This document shows, in pieces, positions 1,168 through 62,946 of a stretch of DNA of 64,000 nt (its first letter is position 1; every line of letters begins with the position of its first letter). The stretch spans positions 648,387 through 712,386 of the forward strand of contig NZ_FRFA01000001.1 of assembly GCF_900143535.1 (NCBI RefSeq), written 5' to 3'. A program made the translations under genes and the position numbers. This stretch comes from Tateyamaria sp. Alg231-49. GTDB lineage: Bacteria; Pseudomonadota; Alphaproteobacteria; Rhodobacterales; Rhodobacteraceae. Below the pieces are notes generated by a model, which saw only the letters and a program-made list of their open reading frames with translations, was not told where the DNA came from and ran no database searches.

Positions 1168-1467
1168 ATGTCCAAGCCCTTCACCCCCAAAGTTGTCACC
1201 GCGAATCACCTGCTGGCCGGCGACGTGATCTATCAGACCGCTTCTGGCTGGACGCGCGACCTTGCTCAAGCCGAAGTGCTGACTGACGAGGCCGACGCCG
1301 ACCTGCGTCTGATCGAAGCAAGCCAGCAAGTTGACGTCGTCGTTGGCGCGTACCTTGCCGATGTCGCCTTGGACGAAGGCACCCCGGTCCCCACACATTT
1401 TCGCGAAACATTCCGCGCCACAGGGCCCAGCAACTACGCCCATGGCAAGCAAGTGGAGCTCTCCTGA
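1168..1467 (+). CDS. DUF2849 family protein of the sulfite reductase operon
   Basis: A 99-residue soluble protein with no signal peptide or membrane segment. The sequence (ANHLLAGDVIYQT near the N-terminus, then alternating beta-type segments) fits DUF2849, a small family that I know as a regular neighbour of cysG and cysI in alphaproteobacteria. Its biochemical role is not established. The position suggests a part in assembly or activity of the siroheme sulfite reductase, which is inference. ATG follows the cysG stop without a gap, and its own TGA overlaps the ATG of cysI (TGATG), so translation of all three is probably coupled. Confidence 0.85.
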   Translation: MSKPFTPKVVTANHLLAGDVIYQTASGWTRDLAQAEVLTDEADADLRLIEASQQVDVVVGAYLADVALDEGTPVPTHFRETFRATGPSNYAHGKQVELS

Positions 1468-11197: not shown

Positions 11198-11683
11198 TTA
11201 TTCTGCAGCGATGGCTCCAACATCCTGACCGGATGCCGCCATGATCGCCTTGACGATGTTGTGATACCCGGTGCAACGGCAGATATTGCCTTCAAGGTAG
11301 TCGCGCACTTCTTGCTCGGACGGTTTCGGATTGTCCTTGAGCAGTGCAGCCGCGGACATCACCATGCCCGGGGTGCAAAATCCACATTGCAGCCCGTGAT
11401 GGTCTTGAAACGCCTGCTGGATCACGTTCAGCGATCCATCTGCATTGGCCTGACCTTCGATGGTGGATACGTCCGCGCCATCTGCTTCTGCCGCCAACAT
11501 GGTGCAGGATTTGACTGCAATTCCGTCCACGTGAACCACGCAAGCCCCACATTGAGACGTGTCACACCCTACGTGAGTACCCGTCAATTTCAGCTCATCC
11601 CGCAAGAAAGACGACAACAGCGTGCGTCCCTCAACTTGGCCAGACGCAGCTTTTCCGTTCACGGTCATTGAGACCTGTGTCAT
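11198..11683 (-). CDS. coxS: CO dehydrogenase-type [2Fe-2S] small subunit
   Basis: 161 residues with both iron-sulfur motifs of the family. The plant-ferredoxin-type cluster ligands are in [16 protein letters not shown], plus a later cysteine (VKSC). The molybdenum-proximal cluster is in [11 protein letters not shown] and [12 protein letters not shown]. It carries electrons from the Mo site of CoxL to the flavin of CoxM. It is the first gene of the three-subunit operon; ATG at 11683, preceded on the minus strand by GGGAG. 85 bases separate it from coxL. Confidence 0.92.
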
Positions 11684-11780
11684 GGCATACTCCCTTGTTT
11701 GCCGTTTTGTTGCGTCGAGTTAAACACGTGGTCGCCGCCATGAGAACCGAAATTTTCGCGCAAGCGGCGAAAACGCAGGA

Positions 11781-12794
11781 TCATGCACCACCCTGTCCCG
11801 CTCCGGATGCGCGTGGCCTGGGACGTGTCGGGATTTCCTTGAGCAACCCGCCGACCCCCATGGCCGAAATGTCGGCCTGTTTCAGAGGCACACCACAAAC
11901 CAGCCGTTCCAACACCCAATCTGCTCCATTAAGAGCGGGCGAGCGCGCGCAGCCCGGCAAGCCGATCACAGGTTTGCCCGCCACTTCGCCAAAAAACAGC
12001 AGGTTGCCCGGATCAACCGGCATGCCATACGCCTCGACCCGGCCACCGGCAATGCGCAGCGCTTCGGGGGCAACATCACGCGGATCGGATGTCGCAGACG
12101 CTGTAAGGATAAACAGAATGTCGCCCGGCGCATCCGCTATTGCGGCCGCGATCGCTGTACTGTTGTGGCGCACGATTACGCGCTCAGTCATCGTCAGGCC
12201 CAGTCGTTCGGTGCGCGCAATCATTGCCTCGCGCCCCTTGGATGCCGGTGTATCCTTGCCCACATGGGTTTCGATCAGCGTGGCCTGCGAAAACTCAGAA
12301 CCAAGAACACCAAGCGCGTGACGACTGGCAGCGCACGCCGCCTCAAGTGCGCGGGCGGGCACGGCATAGGAAATGATCTTGATCGTAGCCAGCATCGTGC
12401 CTGCATCCGCCCGGTGAAAGTTGGGCACGGTGGCCACCGTGATCATCGGATCCACAGCGTTGATGGCGGCTACCTTTTCGGCTGAAATCTCTGCCACGCC
12501 CGGGCAGGTGGCATAAAGGTTCACCCGCCCCGCACCGGCTGCACTGATCCGCACGTTTTGACTGGCGGCGTCTTGCACGATAGCGCGGGCCAATGTTTCG
12601 GCCGCTTGGTTTTCCTCGACATCACCGACTTCTAGCTGCGCCACGGTCACTTCGGTATGTCCAGCCTGCAAAAGGGCCGTCACGTGGGTTTTGGTCAATA
12701 GAGTTCCCTTGGCGATGCGGGTGGATTGAGACGTCATTGAGTGGGCCAAGACCGCCCCCTCGGCCTCTGCCACCGGAACGGGCCCAAAGATCAT
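11781..12794 (-). CDS. MoeA/MoaB-like molybdopterin-binding protein
   Basis: 337 residues. The N-terminus (FGPVPVAEAEGAVLAHSM) resembles the start of MoeA-type proteins. The C-terminal half carries a MoCF-biosynthesis (molybdopterin-binding) domain with conserved small-residue motifs such as LTASATSDPRDVAPEALRIAGG and GKPVIGLPGCARSPALNGADW. Such proteins accompany molybdenum hydroxylases and are thought to take part in cofactor metal insertion or nucleotide attachment; the exact step is not known. Its start ATG overlaps the end of the preceding xdhC-like gene by four bases, so both are co-translated. They lie immediately upstream of coxSLM on the same strand, which supports a dedicated role. 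Confidence 0.82.
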   Translation of the reverse strand: MIFGPVPVAEAEGAVLAHSMTSQSTRIAKGTLLTKTHVTALLQAGHTEVTVAQLEVGDVEENQAAETLARAIVQDAASQNVRISAAGAGRVNLYATCPGVAEISAEKVAAINAVDPMITVATVPNFHRADAGTMLATIKIISYAVPARALEAACAASRHALGVLGSEFSQATLIETHVGKDTPASKGREAMIARTERLGLTMTERVIVRHNSTAIAAAIADAPGDILFILTASATSDPRDVAPEALRIAGGRVEAYGMPVDPGNLLFFGEVAGKPVIGLPGCARSPALNGADWVLERLVCGVPLKQADISAMGVGGLLKEIPTRPRPRASGAGQGGA

Positions 12795-13771
12795 GCAGGC
12801 CTCCGCAGGGCCTGCACCATCTGAGCAAGGATCGACACTGCAATTTCCGAAGGGCTGGCCGCCCCGATATCAAGACCCACAGGGCCGCGAATGCGCGCAA
12901 TTTGCTCAGGAGTAAATCCAGCCTCCGCCAAGCGTTCGACCCGTTTTGCATGGGTCCGGGTCGATCCAAGCGCTCCGATATAGAATGCATCCGAGCCAAG
13001 CGCGACATGGAGCGCGGGATCATCAAGCTTTGGATCGTGGGTCAGCAGCACGAGGGCCGTGCGGGCATCAAGCCCGACCTCTGCCAGTGCCTCGTCAGGC
13101 CAATCCTCGATCAGCGTCTCGCCCGGAAAGCGGGCGGCAGACCCAAAAGCCGCGCGCGGGTCGATGATCACCGGATCATAGCCAGCGACGCGCGCCATTG
13201 GCACAAGCGCCTGAGCGATATGTACGGCCCCCACAATTGCGAGCCGCAAAGGTGGGTTGTGAATGGCGACAAAACTGTGCCCGCCCTCTTCTATACCGCT
13301 TCGATCATTGACAAAACGCGCGGTATGTCCGGTGTGGTCAAGCCGGCGGTCCCACGTGTCAACGTCGACAACATAGGCGACCGGTGTGCGCGAAGCGCGT
13401 GCCGTCACAAGACCCTCTAGCAGATCAATCGGCATCGCCGTCCCGATGGGTTCGACCAGCACCTTGATGGTGCCACCACAGGCCAGCCCGACGGCAAAGG
13501 CATCCCCATCGCTCACCCCATATTCCAAAAGCCGCGGTGTGCCATCTTCCAGCGCTTCAAGCGCCTCAACAACAACCGCACCTTCCACACAGCCGCCAGA
13601 GACCGAGCCGAACATCTCGCCGTCGCCGGAGACAACCATTTGTGCGCCCGCGCGGCGCGGTGCGCTGCCCCAAGTCTGCACAACTGTCGCCAGTGCCGCG
13701 CCCTGCCCGTCCTTGGCCCAGATCAATGCTTGCTCTGGTGCATTCTCAAACGTGTCCATCGCGCCCTCCAC
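12791..13771 (-). CDS. XdhC/CoxI-family molybdenum cofactor maturation protein
   Basis: 326 residues with an N-terminal XdhC-CoxI domain (ALATVVQTWGSAPRRAGAQMVV, then GSVSGGCVEGAVV). A C-terminal Rossmann-like XdhC_C domain (AIVGAVHIAQALVPMARVAGYDPVIIDPR, later GALGSTRTHAKRVERL) follows. XdhC proteins bind molybdenum cofactor, promote its sulfuration and deliver it to xanthine-dehydrogenase-type apoenzymes. It is the first gene of a minus-strand run xdhC-moeA-like, then coxSLM. The 300 bases upstream (13772-14071) contain no gene I can support. Confidence 0.88.
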   Translation of the reverse strand: MEGAMDTFENAPEQALIWAKDGQGAALATVVQTWGSAPRRAGAQMVVSGDGEMFGSVSGGCVEGAVVVEALEALEDGTPRLLEYGVSDGDAFAVGLACGGTIKVLVEPIGTAMPIDLLEGLVTARASRTPVAYVVDVDTWDRRLDHTGHTARFVNDRSGIEEGGHSFVAIHNPPLRLAIVGAVHIAQALVPMARVAGYDPVIIDPRAAFGSAARFPGETLIEDWPDEALAEVGLDARTALVLLTHDPKLDDPALHVALGSDAFYIGALGSTRTHAKRVERLAEAGFTPEQIARIRGPVGLDIGAASPSEIAVSILAQMVQALRRPA

Positions 13772-14071
13772 ATCTGCTGGTTCGCAACCGACTTGGAAAG
13801 ATTGCTGTCAGACAATACGACCCGCCGTGGCCAAGTGAAATCGACGTGCGTCCCGTCGCAGGGACGCGGCAGTTTTACCTAGGCGGCGTGGGGCGATCTG
13901 TCAGGCAAGCGATCATTCGAGAGTGGGTCTGAACCTGCTGGTTTGGTGAGCCGGAAGCCTAAACCCCGCACATCCCCAAGTTCAACCCCACACGCTATGC
14001 TGCGCTAACGCTTGCACCCCCGCCCCCGCCGCCCTAAATCTGGAACAACAGCAGATTGGAGACACGACCAT

Positions 14072-14314
14072 ATGCCCATGCAAGCCCAGGAAATCGAGGA
14101 TCTGATCCGCGAGACCTTTCCTTCCGCAAAAATCACGATCACAGACCTTGCAGGGGACGGCAATCATTACTCTGCCGAGGTGATTGATGCATCCTTTGAA
14201 GGTATGAACAGAGTGCAGCAGCACCGCGCCGTTACCAAAGCCCTGAAGGGAAAGATGGACGGCAGCCATGGAGAATTGCATGCCTTGGCGCTGACCACAA
14301 AGGCGCCTGGATGA
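14072..14314 (+). CDS. BolA family protein
   Basis: 80 residues from the ATG at 14072, chosen because TTGGAGA lies about ten bases upstream and homology starts at IEDLIRETFP. A longer frame from 14012 has no ribosome site. The BolA core is clear: DGNHYSAEVIDASFEGMNRVQQHRAVTKALKG, with the conserved His in the HxxV segment. BolA proteins pair with monothiol CGFS glutaredoxins to hold or pass [2Fe-2S] clusters, and exactly such a glutaredoxin is encoded two genes downstream. The stop overlaps the next ATG (ATGA). Confidence 0.9.
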   Translation: MPMQAQEIEDLIRETFPSAKITITDLAGDGNHYSAEVIDASFEGMNRVQQHRAVTKALKGKMDGSHGELHALALTTKAPG

Positions 14315-14625
14315 ACGCATTGCTTTCTTTCCTTTCGGCCCCATTTCGACGTGGGACACGGCGTCCGCTTTCGGCGCGCCAACCCGGACGTGCAGAAATG
14401 GGACAGGTGCGCGATGTACCCTTGGGAATGGAAGCTACAAATCTGGACCTGATCGATCAGGTAAACCGACGCAACGACGCCCTTGAACGGGTCAACACTA
14501 TTGCCGGGCAACGGAGTACCAAAGGCAGCTTTGCGGCCGCCGCAAGCACCCGCATTGACCCCATGCCCGAAGATGAAACCTATGCCGCGCGCTATCACCG
14601 CGCCTATATCGAGAAAGATGACTGA
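14311..14625 (+). CDS. Small hypothetical protein between bolA and glutaredoxin
   Basis: 104 residues, basic N-terminus ([20 protein letters not shown]), no membrane segment or known motif. Short conserved-looking pieces are [18 protein letters not shown] and [19 protein letters not shown]. It overlaps bolA by four bases and the glutaredoxin gene by eight, so all three are almost certainly translationally coupled. Codon use resembles the neighbours. No function is assigned; an accessory role in iron-sulfur handling is possible from position only. Confidence 0.72.
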
Positions 14626-14989
14626 CATGAGCGACGCAAACGCACAAATCGCCGATACGATCAAAGCCAACGACGTGGTGCTTTTCATGAAAGGCACGAA
14701 ATCCATGCCGCAATGCGGGTTTTCCAGCCGTGTGGCGGGTGTGCTGAACTATATGGGCGTCGATTTTGCGGACGTGAACGTTTTGGCCGACGAAGGCATT
14801 CGGTCAGGCATCAAAGAATTCTCGGACTGGCCCACCATCCCGCAGCTGTATGTGAAGGGCGAATTTGTGGGCGGATGCGACATCATCACTGAAATGACCT
14901 TGTCGGGTGAGCTGGACACGCTGTTTTCGGAAAACAACGTCACTTTCGACAAAGACGCCGCTGATAAGATCCGCGAAGCCAACGGCTGA
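14618..14989 (+). CDS. grxD: Monothiol glutaredoxin, Grx4/GrxD type
   Basis: 123 residues from ATG 14618 (a second ATG at 14627 is equally possible; both overlap or abut the preceding stop). The CGFS active site is in [19 protein letters not shown], and the glutathione-binding [19 protein letters not shown] stretch is intact. CGFS glutaredoxins bind a [2Fe-2S] cluster with glutathione and transfer it, often as heterodimers with BolA, to apoproteins or iron regulators. The bolA gene three hundred bases upstream in the same operon supports this pairing. Confidence 0.92.
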
Positions 14990-14993
14990 GCGA

Positions 14994-15419
14994 TCAGGGG
15001 CGGCGCATGACCATTCCATGCTTGTCGGTGTCGTCAAAGCCGACTTTGCGATAGAACCCTTGCGCGCCCCGGGCCGTCCCGGTCAATAGCATGACCTTGT
15101 AGGCATGCGCCTTCCACGCCATGTCGATCAGTCGGGTAAGCACCAACCGCCCGACACCCCTGCGCTGGTGGCTGCGCGCCGTCACAACATTTTCGATCAA
15201 TCCGTAGGGGCGGCCACCGTAGGTCATGTTGGGCAGGATGTGCAGGGTCGCCATGCCTGCCAGTTCGTCTTGGTCAAACGCCCCAAGGACGGTGGTTCCG
15301 GGATGCGCCAGCACGCGGGCAAACTGCGCTCCATCCGCGACCTGCCCGCTTCGGGTCAATTCGAGGTATAGGGCACATGCGGCTGGCGCGTCGTCTGCGC
15401 TCAAGGCCCGAAGGATCAT
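14994..15419 (-). CDS. GNAT-family N-acetyltransferase
   Basis: 141 residues from ATG 15419. The acetyl-CoA loop is visible in SHQRRGVGRLVLTRLIDMAW (Q/RxxGxG/A type), followed by KVMLLTGTARGAQGFYRKVGF, typical of GNAT enzymes. The substrate cannot be predicted. The start lies one base past the zapA stop, so it belongs to the minus-strand coiled-coil/zapA/GNAT run. It converges with grxD, with only four bases between stops and no clear terminator. Confidence 0.85.
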   Translation of the reverse strand: MILRALSADDAPAACALYLELTRSGQVADGAQFARVLAHPGTTVLGAFDQDELAGMATLHILPNMTYGGRPYGLIENVVTARSHQRRGVGRLVLTRLIDMAWKAHAYKVMLLTGTARGAQGFYRKVGFDDTDKHGMVMRRP

Positions 15420-58935: not shown

Positions 58936-59745
58936 CTACTGATCCTTGCCCAGCATATGGTTCATGGACACCGCAGGCTGATCACATCCCGCCTCGCCCA
59001 CAATCCGTGCCGGTATACCAGCAACCGTTTTACAGGGTGGGACTTCCTCAAGAACGACGGATCCGGCGGCGATTCGACTGCAATTGCCCACCCGGATGTT
59101 TCCAAGAACCTTGGCCCCTGCCCCAATCAGAACGCCGTCGCCAATCTTTGGATGGCGGTCTTCTTCTTCCTTGCCTGTCCCGCCAAGCGTTACGGAATGC
59201 AGCATAGAGACATCGTTTCCCACCACCGCCGTCTCACCGATGACAATAGAATGGGCGTGATCAATCATGATCCCTTTCCCAATGGACGCCGCCGGGTGAA
59301 TGTCCACTCCGAAAATCTCCGACACCCGCATCTGGAAGAAATAAGCGAGGTCCTGATGCCCCTCCGTCCAAAGGAAATGGCCAACCCGATAAGCTTGGAT
59401 GGCCTGATAGCCTTTAAAGTACAGAATGGGCTGTACCAACCGGTGACACGCCGGATCACGCTCATAGACAGCTACCAAATCGGACCGGGCGGCATCGACC
59501 AACTCCGGAGACTTTTGATACGCCTCTTCCACAATTTCACGCACCACCACCATCGACATCTCGTTTGACGCCAGCTTTGCCGCGATGCGGTAAGATAACG
59601 CCTTTTCGATGGATTTGTGATGCAGAATACAAGCATGGACGAACCCACCGATCAGCGGTTCTTCCACAACCGCCTGACGAGCTTCATCATTTATTTGCTC
59701 CCACAGGGGATCAATCGCAGTAATATTTGTTTTGAGATAAGCCAT
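58936..59745 (-). CDS. cysE: Serine O-acetyltransferase
   Basis: 269 residues from ATG 59745 (AAGGA seven bases upstream). The N-terminal helical domain (WEQINDEARQAVVEEPLIGGFVHACIL) is typical of CysE. The left-handed beta helix of hexapeptide repeats carries the catalytic and binding HSVTLGGTGK and DRHPKIGDGVLIGAGAKVLGNI. It makes O-acetylserine, the acceptor for the sulfide produced by the cluster at 1-5 kb. In Rhodobacter relatives cysE is the gene that follows the GTA cluster, as it does here. Confidence 0.95.
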   Translation of the reverse strand: MAYLKTNITAIDPLWEQINDEARQAVVEEPLIGGFVHACILHHKSIEKALSYRIAAKLASNEMSMVVVREIVEEAYQKSPELVDAARSDLVAVYERDPACHRLVQPILYFKGYQAIQAYRVGHFLWTEGHQDLAYFFQMRVSEIFGVDIHPAASIGKGIMIDHAHSIVIGETAVVGNDVSMLHSVTLGGTGKEEEDRHPKIGDGVLIGAGAKVLGNIRVGNCSRIAAGSVVLEEVPPCKTVAGIPARIVGEAGCDQPAVSMNHMLGKDQ

Positions 59746-59830
59746 GACCCATCCTTTCGAGTGCTGCATACCCTAGATAAGACGTTTTTTCCAAACGCAA
59801 ACCTGTGATGCACACCATCTAAAGACGCGA

Positions 59831-60118
59831 TCAATGGTGAGAGCCATGTTCGACCAACTCCTGTAAAACCAAAATGAGGGCCTTGGCGAAGTCGGGAGTG
59901 CATGTCGGCGGCTCGGCACTCATACCTGCACCACGGGCCGCTCCTGCCAGCGTACCGTCCCCAAATTGAGCATGTCGCACCCCGGTGCTCTCTCTAAATC
60001 GGTCAGCGACACAGGCGTTACGCACCAATGCGCCCGCCATGTATGCCCGCGATTCCGGAGCAACCGCCAAAAGGGCGCGCCCCGCACAAAAAAGATCGGC
60101 CATGACCACCGGGCGCAT
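59831..60118 (-). CDS. Small conserved protein that follows the GTA cluster (DUF7742-like)
   Basis: 95 residues: MRPVVMADLFCAGRALLAVA at the start, VADRFRESTGVRHAQFGDGTLAGAARG in the middle, then ILVLQELVEHG. I recall proteins beginning MRPV and containing GDGTLMAAA directly after the last structural gene of the Rhodobacter GTA cluster, and this looks like the same family. Function unknown. Its ATG overlaps the stop of the gp15 remnant (TAATG), so the ancestral coupling at this end of the cluster is preserved. Confidence 0.78.
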   Translation of the reverse strand: MRPVVMADLFCAGRALLAVAPESRAYMAGALVRNACVADRFRESTGVRHAQFGDGTLAGAARGAGMSAEPPTCTPDFAKALILVLQELVEHGSHH

Positions 60119-60345
60119 TAGGGGTCTACCGTCAGGTTAGCAAATACCCCAATACCATAACGCGCCGAATTCTGAGCCACCGCAATTTCAAATGGGCCTG
60201 CCATGCCATCCGCCAAACGATCTGCGTCACTGTACATCCAGCTTGGCGCAGTCACGGTTTCTTCCCGAATGACGCCACCGTCCTGCAAGACCCGCACGGT
60301 GTAACTCTCTGTGTCTTCAGCCAACGGCACCCTGCATCTGCGCAC
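60118..60345 (-). pseudogene. C-terminal remnant of GTA tail protein gp15
   Basis: About 70 codons. The part from EDTESYTVRVLQDGG to the end (TAPSWMYSDADRLADGM; AVAQNSARYGIGVFANLTVDP) resembles the C-terminus of the large GTA host-specificity protein encoded by orfg15, which is normally over 1200 residues. Everything upstream of this piece is missing, and the frame runs instead into the truncated terminase gene in a different phase. A GTG at 60345 gives a formal start, but the product is very unlikely to fold. The family call rests on remembered sequence features and position. Confidence 0.68.
60300..60345. other. Probable deletion junction in the GTA cluster
   Basis: On the minus strand, terminase sequence is recognisable up to GIVVVGAQMQ (about base 60330) and stops at TGA 60319-60317. 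gp15-like sequence begins in another frame at about base 60316. The intervening structural genes (portal, capsid, tail; normally around 11-13 kb) are absent. Confidence 0.65.
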
Positions 60346-61219
60346 CCACTACAACAATCCCGCACTCATCGGCAGACTTTCCACTGGTGATTGCCGGGTC
60401 CACCCCAACAACAATACGGTCGAACTCGGCAGGCGCCTTACGATGACAAAGCTCCAACATCTCACCAGTCCAGAGCGCACCCTCAGCATCGCTCAACAAC
60501 ACACCGTCCAATTCCTGACGGCCCAGTCGCGTCCCGGCATATCGGGCCCTGACCTCTTCCAGAAACGACCCTGCCAGATTGGCAGCGTTGGCCTCGGTCG
60601 GGGCGTGAGTGGTAACGGTCGAAGGCAACTGAAGCAGCATTTTCAGCGCGCCTATATTGCGCGGCGTCGTCGTCACACAAACCTGCGGTTTCTCACCTAG
60701 ACGCAAAGCGAACTGCAACATGTCCCACGTGTCTTGCGCCTTCTTCCACTTGGCCATCTCATCGACCCAAGCAGCATCAAACTGCGGCCCCCGCAATCCC
60801 TCCGGGTCAAAAGCGGTATGTACGCTCGCCACAGCACCGTTCGGCCAGATCAAGCGTTTGCGGCTCGCCTCCCATTTCGGACGGCGATCGGGCGGTGAAC
60901 AGGCCAGAATGCCGCTTTCACCAAAAATCATAACTTCGCGCACCTGCTCGATGGTTTCGCCAACCAAGGCCACGCGGCGCGCGCGCCCTTTGTCAAACGG
61001 GGTCGCCCCTTCGACCTGAGATCGCACCCATTCGGCACCTGCGCGCGTCTTGCCCGCCCCGCGTCCCCCCATGATCACCCAAGTGCGCCAGTCGCCCTCA
61101 GGAGGCAATTGATGTGGCATCGCCCAGAACTCGAACAAAAAAGGGAGGGCGCACAAGGCGCCCTCTCCCAACTCACTCAGAAACGCGTCCTGCGCTTGCA
61201 CAGGTACGGAGGCGAGCAA
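60317..61219 (-). pseudogene. GTA large terminase (gp2), truncated: ATPase kept, nuclease lost
   Basis: A frame open from 61309 (330 codons). Homology and a reasonable TTG start at 61219 suggest about 300. In numbering from 61309, Walker A GGRGAGKT is 81-88, Walker B with Asp183-Glu184 is in FDAAWVDE, and the coupling motif TTTPRN is 213-218. The first nuclease aspartate (VVGVDPA, Asp304) is present, but the frame ends 26 residues later. Intact GTA terminases are about 430-490 residues, so most of the RNase H-like nuclease is gone. It overlaps gp1 upstream. The protein could at most be an ATPase fragment; DNA cutting and packaging should be lost. Confidence 0.8.
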
Positions 61220-61517
61220 GCGCGCACCGTACCTCAACTCCGGCAGCGTCAAGGTCCAAGGCATATCCGCCTTGGGCAATGCGACTGCGTTTTTGTCTGA
61301 CTTCTGCAAGCGTCGTCTCCAATCTTTGGCAACTCACAAGCACAGTGTTCAAATCCGTTCCTTTGGATTTGAGCTCAGTACCGCTGACGTCCTCCCCCGC
61401 TTCGACCCTTTCTTTGAGGGCCCTGAACTCACGACGAAGATCGCCGAGTGAGTTGTGCACGTCGAGCAGCAGCTCGTCCGTGCGAGCTTCTTCAAGCCCC
61501 GGGGTGATAAGTGTCAT
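61173..61517 (-). CDS. GTA gp1-like small terminase protein
   Basis: 114 residues from ATG 61517. Predicted coiled coil (DELLLDVHNSLGDLRREFRALKERVEAG), then LNTVLVSCQRLETTLAEVRQKRSRIAQGGYALDLDAA, which corresponds to orfg1 of the Rhodobacter GTA, a small terminase-like subunit. It is intact and in the ancestral position ahead of the terminase gene. With the remainder of the cluster gone, it is probably a relic kept by recency or by another role. Confidence 0.76.
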   Translation of the reverse strand: MTLITPGLEEARTDELLLDVHNSLGDLRREFRALKERVEAGEDVSGTELKSKGTDLNTVLVSCQRLETTLAEVRQKRSRIAQGGYALDLDAAGVEVRCALARLRTCASAGRVSE

Positions 61518-61564
61518 ATGTGCAAAACCTCTCATGCGTTGGGTATCCCCCGCACGAGCAAAAT

Positions 61565-61779: not shown

Positions 61780-62946
61780 TCAGCCGCCATCGCTCTGCGA
61801 CGCTCGCTCCGCTTCGATCTCACGCCAGCGGGCCACATTGCGATTGTGCTCGTCCAACGTCTCGGCAAAGGCATGGCCGCCGGTTCCATCCGCGACAAAG
61901 AAGACATAAGGCGTATCAGCCGGTTGAGCGGCAGCCATCAGGCTGGCCCGACCCGGATTTGCAATCGGCGTCGGCGGCAAACCTTCGATCACGTAGGTGT
62001 TCCAAGGGGTCACCGCACGCAGTTCGGAACGGCGCAATCCGCGGCCCAACACGCCCTGCCCTTTGGTGATGCCGTAAATCACCGTCGGGTCTGTCTGCAG
62101 CCGCATGCCACGATTCAGACGGTTGACAAAAACAGAGGATACTTGCGGCCTTTCGTCAGCCACCCCGGTTTCCTTTTCGATGATCGACGCAAGTGTCAGC
62201 AACTCTTCAGGGCTGTTCAAAGGCAGATCAGGATCACGCGCTTCCCAGGCGGCGGAGACCCACAATTCCTGCTGTTCGGCCATCTGCGCCAAAACGTCGG
62301 CCCGCTCATCCCCCTTACGGACCTCATAGCTGTCAGGAGCCAACGCCCCTTCCGGCGGGATCTCCTCGACAGCGCCCCGCAAAACGTCCATGCCACGCAA
62401 CGCAGTCACGATCTGCCAGCTGGTGACCCCTTCGGCCAACGCAATGCGATACCGGGTGTCCTGCGCGTCTCTCACTTCAGAATAAAGCGGAGGCGCCTCA
62501 TCAACACCGGGCTCAAATTCAACGCGCTCGACAAATCGGTTGGTGGTCGGATCCAATTCACGCACCAGCGCGCTCAATCGATTGACCCCAATGCGATAGA
62601 CGACCTCGGTACCGCAGGTGCTCGCCCCGCCGCGCGTGACCACATCTACGATCTCTTCCATTGAGGCACCGGGTTCAACCAAAAAGCTGCCGGCCTTCAA
62701 CTCGCCTGACTTGCCAGCATAATCAGCGCCCATCCGAAAAATCGACGCGCTTGAAACAGCCCCTTCGGCCGCCAAATCCTCGCTCACGCGTAGAAAGTTC
62801 GACCCGCGATCCACCTGCACACAAATCGCATCAGCAAGTGGCCCCGGCCCTTCATACTGGCCCCGGCCCCACAAGATCAGGCCACCAAGCACAAACAGGG
62901 CGACAATCAATAAGGTCAACGCGTTAGACGCGATGGATCGCCACAT
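61780..62946 (-). CDS. mltG: Endolytic murein transglycosylase MltG
   Basis: 388 residues. Short cytoplasmic N-terminus, one membrane helix (SNALTLLIVALFVLGGLILWG), then a LysM-like region and the YceG catalytic domain with the active-site Glu in LASIIEKETGVADERPQVSSVFVNRL and MRLQTDPTVIYGI. It cuts nascent glycan strands and limits their length. Its ATG overlaps the fabF stop (TAATG), giving a coupled fabF-mltG pair. Confidence 0.94.
   Translation of the reverse strand: MWRSIASNALTLLIVALFVLGGLILWGRGQYEGPGPLADAICVQVDRGSNFLRVSEDLAAEGAVSSASIFRMGADYAGKSGELKAGSFLVEPGASMEEIVDVVTRGGASTCGTEVVYRIGVNRLSALVRELDPTTNRFVERVEFEPGVDEAPPLYSEVRDAQDTRYRIALAEGVTSWQIVTALRGMDVLRGAVEEIPPEGALAPDSYEVRKGDERADVLAQMAEQQELWVSAAWEARDPDLPLNSPEELLTLASIIEKETGVADERPQVSSVFVNRLNRGMRLQTDPTVIYGITKGQGVLGRGLRRSELRAVTPWNTYVIEGLPPTPIANPGRASLMAAAQPADTPYVFFVADGTGGHAFAETLDEHNRNVARWREIEAERASQSDGG

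Follow-up and report, generated by a model that had tools for sequence, protein, structure and literature searches.

In a window of 64,000 bases (positions 648387–712386 of a 740,553-base contig) from the marine bacterium Tateyamaria sp. Alg231-49, labelled G000 here, pieces of a gene transfer agent (GTA) cluster are preserved between intact flanking genes (Table 1). The genome is a draft of 39 contigs with a completeness of 99.98%, and the locus is situated ~32 kb from the contig end and is therefore not a contig-end feature. ORF listing and profile searches place all GTA pieces and their flanks, including cysE, on the minus strand: fabF and mltG lie on the gp1 side and cysE on the other. mltG adjoins the GTA locus in most annotated loci of other genomes, too.

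Table 1. Features of the GTA locus in the window (positions in the window) and, below them, the boundaries of gp2-to-gp15 joints (residues) other than the recurrent one.
Feature	Position	Strand	Evidence
mltG, intact left flank	61783..62946	-	TIGR00247 endolytic transglycosylase MltG, E=2e-66, above cut-off
gp1-like small terminase gene, open	61173..61535	-	ORF; tblastn, 50% identity to gp1 of G001
gp2 large terminase, 330 aa (residues 1-327 of ~471 plus 3 foreign codons, TGA)	60317..61309	-	Terminase_6N, E=2e-29; tblastn
gp2/gp15 junction of the probable deletion	60327..60331	-	blastn break at 60330 and pairwise alignments; at most ~3 nt shared
Last 69 codons of gp15 (megatron) with stop	60118..60327	-	matches to RcGTA gp15 and PHROG 4271; out of gp2 phase
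DUF7742 gene, after gp15	59831..60118	-	PF24891, E=3e-24; TAATG common to its start and the gp15 stop
cysE, intact right flank	58936..59769	-	TIGR01172, E=2e-67, above cut-off
Joint in G000	gp2 327 / gp15 ~1231-1240		tblastn boundaries
Joint in G119	gp2 417 / gp15 1158		tblastn boundaries
Joint in G022	gp2 375 / gp15 296		tblastn boundaries
Joint in G086	gp2 332 / gp15 1085		tblastn boundaries
Joint in G295	gp2 254 / gp15 1199		tblastn boundaries
Joint in G113	gp2 155 / gp15 1202		tblastn boundaries
Joint in G036	gp2 67 / gp15 811		tblastn boundaries

A preliminary description of the window had proposed an intact gp1-like gene, a large-terminase frame ending within the nuclease domain, about 65 codons in another phase resembling the end of gp15, the small gene that follows gp15 and finally cysE, with the overlaps at both edges retained, and our searches bear out each of these assignments. 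The frame of gp1, which corresponds to TerS of RcGTA (PMC6854486), is open and overlaps the gp2 ORF by 137 bases; the two ORFs likewise overlap in the congeneric loci L103, L108 and L114. The gp2 frame, whose full-length matches in congeners are 74–82% identical, stops inside the nuclease half, because residue 327 falls within the RcGTA TerL nuclease construct V253–L455 given in PMC6854486. It reads three foreign codons before its TGA, and the gp15 end is therefore out of phase with it. The gp15-derived codons, 69 in number, extend from ~60327 to 60121. The proposed search of the 75-residue product of 60118–60345 against gp15 proteins yielded a C-terminal match: this product aligns to residues 1234–1302 of 1304 in RcGTA gp15 (PDB 6TBA/6TEH; E=4e-13) and to positions 1234–1307 of 1309 in the PHROG 4271 tail protein (E=4e-9), and its GTG start at 60345 is located inside out-of-phase gp2 DNA, ahead of the gp15-derived codons. 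At the other edge, the gp15 stop and the DUF7742 start still share TAATG.

Congeneric clusters have the order gp1 to gp15 followed by cysE that had been stated for Rhodobacterales. The DNA of G000 aligns with these intact congeners down to 60330 and then resumes in the end of gp15 (left side aligned to G010, G012, G008 and G009; right side to G010, G012, G014 and G011), which makes a single internal deletion sufficient. The points that touch in G000 lie 12,610–12,827 bases apart in all 16 congeneric clusters measured; the edges are homologous to and collinear with the intact congeners and are separated by one gap, as is characteristic of a one-deletion GTA remnant. We are accordingly confident that the joining of the ends of a GTA cluster by one deletion, as the preliminary description had supposed, with a size of ~12.6–12.8 kb, is the best explanation of the window. 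Such a deletion would have taken the end of gp2, all of gp3–gp14 and ~95% of gp15, and would have left gp1, the truncated gp2, the out-of-phase 69-codon end of gp15, DUF7742 and cysE; it probably arose via short-homology (illegitimate) joining.

The remainder of the genome agrees with this picture. Neither the GTA-type portal (gp3) nor the GTA-type major capsid (gp5) has a match in G000, while each is present in 17 of the 20 genomes of the genus, the members without portal and capsid matches being G000, G006 and G014. A second gp2 yielded no match in the G000 genome, either, and the sole match for gp15 is the 66-residue scar itself; the search for missing genes covered portal, capsid and gp15. 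Intact gp3–gp14 next to a second gp2, which had been named as a sign of rearrangement or duplication, thus found no counterpart among the genes searched. Portal, capsid, full-length gp2 and full-length gp15, all required of a functional RcGTA-like cluster, are lacking in G000. The proposed loss of the GTA at this locus is supported by this anatomy together with the missing portal, capsid and other gp15 matches, as read from one genome assembly, and the strain presumably makes no GTA particles.

The collapse in G000 is not an isolated curiosity, as its sister species collapsed differently at the same locus. This sister, G014 (SH-aLRT 99 in the cysE+mltG tree), carries gp1, a single ORF of 838 aa (L107:2023-4539), DUF7742 and cysE. 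In the ORF, E184 of gp2 is fused in frame to E661 of gp15: the gp2 part reaches to the glutamate of AWVDE, and the gp15 part begins with the glutamate of WFTELGC (RcGTA gp15 E653). Pfam profiles detect positions 2–105 of 215, i.e., half, of Terminase_6N, the last third of GTA_TIM and nearly the whole of both Phage-tail_3 and Rcc01698_C. From query residue 174 onward the chimera aligns to RcGTA gp15 643–1301 (E=4e-213), with the first ten residues of this alignment being gp2-derived. The in-frame succession of W-x-D-E and x-G-C by which we define the chimera is found in G014 and 28 other genomes, but not at the G000 junction (gp2 327, out of phase). The chimera genomes keep gp1, the TerL lobe that carries Walker A and Walker B, the final stretch of the peripheral domain of the megatron and its central and fibre-binding domains, with domain limits as given in PMC7296036.

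To place these two loci among their relatives, a family sample of 395 genomes was surveyed, in which gp2 has a match in 367 and the portal in 336; 31 genomes have gp2 without portal. The re-searched set comprised 36 genomes, namely these 31 minus G000 plus six with weak portal matches, and the regions of 32 of them (G035, G057, G321 and G362 being left out) were annotated alongside G014 and the window. The exact G014 joint occurs in 17 of the 395 genomes, while seven gp2-to-gp15 loci, among them that of the window, are joined at other points, no two of them alike (Table 1). With the joint as query, a second sample of 390 genomes gave at least 18 full-length matches, 11 of them new among the matches listed, which brings the total including G014 to at least 29 of 630 genomes (G000–G629) in 22 genera. 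W-x-D-E-x-G-C is present at the joint in 29/29 chimeras, all in frame there, and the ORF is open throughout in 24 (G133 is cut by its contig; G067, G279, G345 and G524 are broken). The Walker A sequence is GGRGAGKT in 26 of the 29, with one change in G541 and a position outside the open frame in G345 and G524. A gp1 ORF lies beside the chimera in all 18 first loci, with match or motif support in eight of the 11 others. Fused and intact forms occur together within genera. Directly after the chimera, the loci L167, L168, L172, L180 and L181 (G214, G134, G193, G345 and G297) hold an ORF of 234–243 aa, which we take to resemble DUF2793-type fibre proteins.

Several further loci attracted attention in their own right. 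In G018 (L108, C7), a frameshift splits the gp2 of a cluster that is otherwise long; another contig (G018:C8:175599-179555) encodes a second gp15, 44% identical, perhaps in a GTA-related prophage. The gp15 of L103 (G012, 11413-15344) is split into frames of 256 and 1054 aa, and DUF7742 is missing there, since gp15 and cysE are ~127 bases apart; L103 may be a GTA cluster that is beginning to decay. L188 (G219) has a full-length gp2 (478-aa frame) directly before cysE; other GTA genes gave no match in this 18-kb region, nor did the portal anywhere in the genome. In L258 (G405, of the same genus as the fused G137), ~440 bases are inserted in frame at gp15 residue ~655, just ahead of the point at which chimeras are joined. 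Finally, genus g37 (L194, L241–L250) has extra DNA between gp2 and gp3: the gp3 start follows the gp2 start by 2.1–2.7 kb in 10 of 11 intact loci and by more in G566, compared with ~1.6 kb in L114.

Against this background, we weighed other readings of the window. gp1 and the truncated gp2 (ATPase half plus nuclease start) might be a selected working module that has undergone no pseudogenisation: both gp1 and gp2 1–327 are open, gp2 shows a dN/dS of ~0.09–0.15 versus congeners, RcGTA gp1 is a binding partner of the TerL ATPase domain (PMC6854486), and G000 still has an open frame for a GafA-type DUF6456 protein of 379 aa, which would fit a residual function of gp1 and the gp2 N-terminus. However, a recent deletion predicts an identical picture. 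Moreover, gp2 terminates in three foreign codons, the six other non-chimera gp2-to-gp15 junctions all differ and none matches that of G000, and retention of DUF6456 is uninformative, as it is also kept by six genomes in which none of the GTA queries tried had a match. We consider such a module improbable. A remnant of a G014-type chimera, with an ancestral gp2–gp15 fusion and a later deletion, is suggested by the sister relationship of G000 and G014 (SH-aLRT 99), one of which carries the chimera, yet G000 retains gp2 residues 185–327, which are absent from the chimera and which no deletion can restore; the two collapses are therefore separate events unless recombination intervened, and we judge this origin very improbable. 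That the cluster core lies elsewhere or was dropped by the assembler, as a 39-contig draft might allow, is hardly credible given that the scar lies within a 740-kb contig of a 99.98% complete genome without portal, capsid or second gp2 match, and that the family sample contains 30 other genomes with a gp2 but no portal match, five of them single-contig (G022, G067, G119, G237 and G393).

A single deletion thus remains our explanation of the window, and its age can be approached from the state of the pieces. Those of gp2 and gp15 in G000 contain neither frameshift nor stop. In simulations of unconstrained sequence with point changes only, 855, 255, 81 and 40 of 2000 copies were still stop-free at 0.02, 0.05, 0.08 and 0.10 substitutions per site, respectively, and the synonymous distance between G000 and G014 amounts to ~0.45–1.6 over gp1, gp2, mltG and cysE (converted from pS; the gp15 end, with a pS of 0.73 near saturation, was excluded). 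If the pieces are unconstrained, their stop-free state implies that the deletion is younger than most of the G000/G014 split, and it is probably young relative to the separation from the sister species. The description of the scar as datable was too optimistic: given neutrality, its age is bounded at most and apparently low, and dating by private substitutions of the G000 branch was dropped because their counts are too low to distinguish constraint from none.

For the recurrent chimera, we lean towards the reading that the GTA cluster in Rhodobacteraceae has repeatedly collapsed, at least ~14 times, via a codon-exact deletion of ~11 kb into one selected chimera, in which gp2 up to its Walker B glutamate continues into gp15 from a TIM-barrel glutamate onward. 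On this view, a virus-like element has given rise convergently to a new domesticated gene, which purifying selection then maintains next to gp1. An LG+G4 tree of 63 rows (26 fused), drawn from a 76-row set and leaving out G133, G297 and G458, has 15 label changes, of which 14 are forced (14–15 over bootstraps); the 76-row tree (27 fused), which leaves out G297, G099, G036, G295 and ten congeners, has 17, of which again 14 are forced. These changes count gains and losses alike, and a regain of 11 kb by a fused lineage is unlikely. The chimera label is clustered beyond chance (5 of 500 shuffles are as low in the 63-row tree), as expected if some clades inherited the chimera. The gp2 tree, with 15 changes of which two are forced, and the host (cysE+mltG) tree, with 13 of which seven are forced, give weaker support. 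Fused genes stand beside intact ones of their own genus with strong support in G067/G371, G134/G404, G137/G405 and G524/G451, and with uneven support in G443/G573 (98/55) and G014/G018 (96/59). A tree of gp15 columns 653–780 that united all fused rows in one clade (support 99) was rejected as an artefact, since columns 653–661 of the fused rows are gp2-derived; clean columns (663 on) reject the clade.

Convergence would be only apparent if one ancient deletion allele had been passed between lineages, its flanks being replaced by recombination up to the joint. Such a history would accommodate a joint that is identical at the codon level in 29/29 chimeras and the coexistence of intact and fused forms within genera; the gp2 tree, with two of 15 changes forced, is too weak to oppose it, and over the 45 bases to the right of the joint G014, G067 and G134 agree best with fused rows from other genera, though by no more than 1–2 bases, a margin that does not decide the matter. 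Nevertheless, a single clade is rejected in six of six clean windows, taken from either flank of the joint (AU p ≤ 1.3e-3; long or partial rows G297, G099, G295 and G036 left out), with p values of 7e-4 and 3e-5 in the ~100 codons adjoining it, and no obvious fused haplotype is apparent in the 60 bases on either side. In genus g37, the gp1 and gp15 trees put the five fused species in three separate positions, and one origin within the genus is rejected for gp1 (2e-4), gp2 (0.04) and the gp15 segments (0.003, 5e-5), although not by the cysE segment (p=0.125). GTA particles carry the DNA of their producer and fused cells cannot produce them, so that the chimera allele cannot spread by GTA. Viral spread was discarded as none of the best 80 of 553 viral-contig relatives matches the whole 194-aa joint query; these 80 start at residue 47 or later, and some slightly cross the joint, as intact gp15 genes do. 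Spread by plasmid or phage fared no better, given that no record of 14 plasmid and 141 phage matches covers 80% of the query, the best coverage being 70% among the 14 plasmid and 78% among the 15 phage matches listed. A Paracoccus plasmid match that ends at the joint belongs to a cluster with portal and capsid genes. We regard one shared origin as unlikely.

Similarly doubtful is a DNA-level breakage hot spot that remakes the same joint repeatedly without selection on the product. The two sites bear a weak similarity, with xPQxxxxWxxE in both the G014 gp2 part and RcGTA gp15: ~20 of 42 bases are alike, which at the median ranks within the best ~0.3% of gp2 × gp15 position pairs, for a 42-base window picked after the protein similarity had been seen. 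Furthermore, gp2 of G176 breaks at ~codon 180 with a different partner, and gp2 of G044 (L169) has an internal deletion from ~codon 182 (Walker B strand) to ~367 (nuclease half), both breaks lying within a few codons of the chimera joint in gp2. On the other hand, a typical genome offers thousands of equally similar pairs, and even the best one hundreds, and the longest exact match at the site measures 3–8 bases while gp2 and gp15 share 129–586 8-mers. In intact genomes, the joint sites are alike at ~10–11 of 24 bases. Microhomology as the sole cause was abandoned after 24-base and 21- to 90-base windows had given modest similarity and a mild bias. A further point against a hot spot without selection is that the fusion is in frame at the joint in every case, mostly open and of low dN/dS in two chimera-only clades.

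These clades, G055, G541, G595 and G332, G441, G413 (five pairs), have dN/dS values of 0.02–0.06 for gp2 50–184 and, where measurable, 0.02–0.16 for gp15 664–1305, similar to the 0.03–0.15 and 0.04–0.23 of the intact genes in the same comparison; the chimera figures are rough because many pS values lie at 0.5–0.7 and one of 15 is saturated. They refer to chimeras with a fused sister and assume one inherited fusion per clade. In the pair G107/G393 the gp2 part has 0.10 and the gp15 part a looser 0.12–0.38, and the whole gp15 C-terminal part has 0.25–0.31 in four fused pairs. Without selection, 20–29 stops per lineage are expected, and none of 500 simulated copies stayed stop-free in each of three cases. 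Given one inherited fusion per clade, on which the simulations depend as well, both halves of the chimera are under purifying selection in the two chimera-only clades.

What the product might do can be approached from the joint. Both cut sites presumably lie at the end of a β-strand, at a glutamate; with such folds, the joint would preserve the strand register and leave the Walker B motif complete, a possible reason for selection to fix exactly this joint. In RcGTA, the TerL ATPase domain, assayed as residues 27–258, is bound by the C-terminal helix of gp1 (PMC6854486), and the chimera, whose gp2 part stops at E184, therefore retains only part of the region assayed for gp1 binding. Our tentative guess, less likely right than wrong, is that the chimera interferes with packaging and tail assembly of GTA or related phages, for which it would use the gp1-binding ATPase lobe and the baseplate- and fibre-binding domains; a role unrelated to phages may be as possible. 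In a PADLOC search the chimera had no match, and gp1 had a single weak one (PbeC, E=0.001), which we take as chance.

The regulator GafA, homologues of which are annotated by the domain DUF6456 in PMC9638019, was considered as an additional sign of function. DUF6456 is present in 68 of 73 chosen genomes, among them G000 and all 29 chimera genomes, and is missing in G006, G071, G130, G153 and G591, all five without a hit to those GTA queries that were run against them. It is also retained in G135, G406, G475, G483, G485 and G612, where the GTA queries tried have no match, and in the other collapsed genomes searched. Since it is kept almost everywhere, its retention is no evidence for a function of the chimera or of the window pieces, and we dropped it as such. 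G006, which belongs to the genus of G000 and has a genome of 3.1 Mb, shows no gp2, portal, capsid, gp15 or DUF6456 match and has, by the standard of these searches, lost the GTA entirely, regulator included.

Producing GTA is lethal to the producing cell, and the G000 locus bears on the question of how such production is maintained or lost: nature has here made a clean knock-out in which both edges survive, and the sister species offers a second knock-out of another kind. If the same fusion arose many times and is under purifying selection, some aspect of losing the particle while retaining the fusion would be advantageous. The exactness of the joint raises the question of whether protein selection or a DNA mechanism fixes the same joint repeatedly.

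Among known systems, the congeneric clusters resemble the RcGTA-like cluster of Rhodobacter capsulatus (rcc01682–01698) in their order of gp1, gp2 to gp15 and cysE. The G000 gp2 N-terminus and gp15 C-terminus are homologous to phage and RcGTA proteins, and its gp1 to congeneric gp1; unlike the RcGTA cluster, the G000 locus is devoid of gp3–gp14 and most of gp15, and neither head nor tail can be made from it. PMC10883770 already states that pseudogenisation and complete GTA loss occur in several alphaproteobacterial lineages, and loss in itself is therefore not new. G000 is similar to these cases in that production genes were lost in single lineages; the general account in PMC10883770 differs from it by the single-deletion scar with both edges resolved, to which the recurrent in-frame chimera is added. 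We found no description of a gp2–gp15 fusion in the titles and abstracts of the literature searched, a scope that mostly excludes subscription papers. Compared with the RcGTA megatron (gp15, PDB 6TBA/6TEH) and TerL (gp2), the chimera matches parts of both, with neither parent complete: it ends TerL at the Walker B glutamate and adds the last part of the peripheral domain together with the central and fibre-binding domains.
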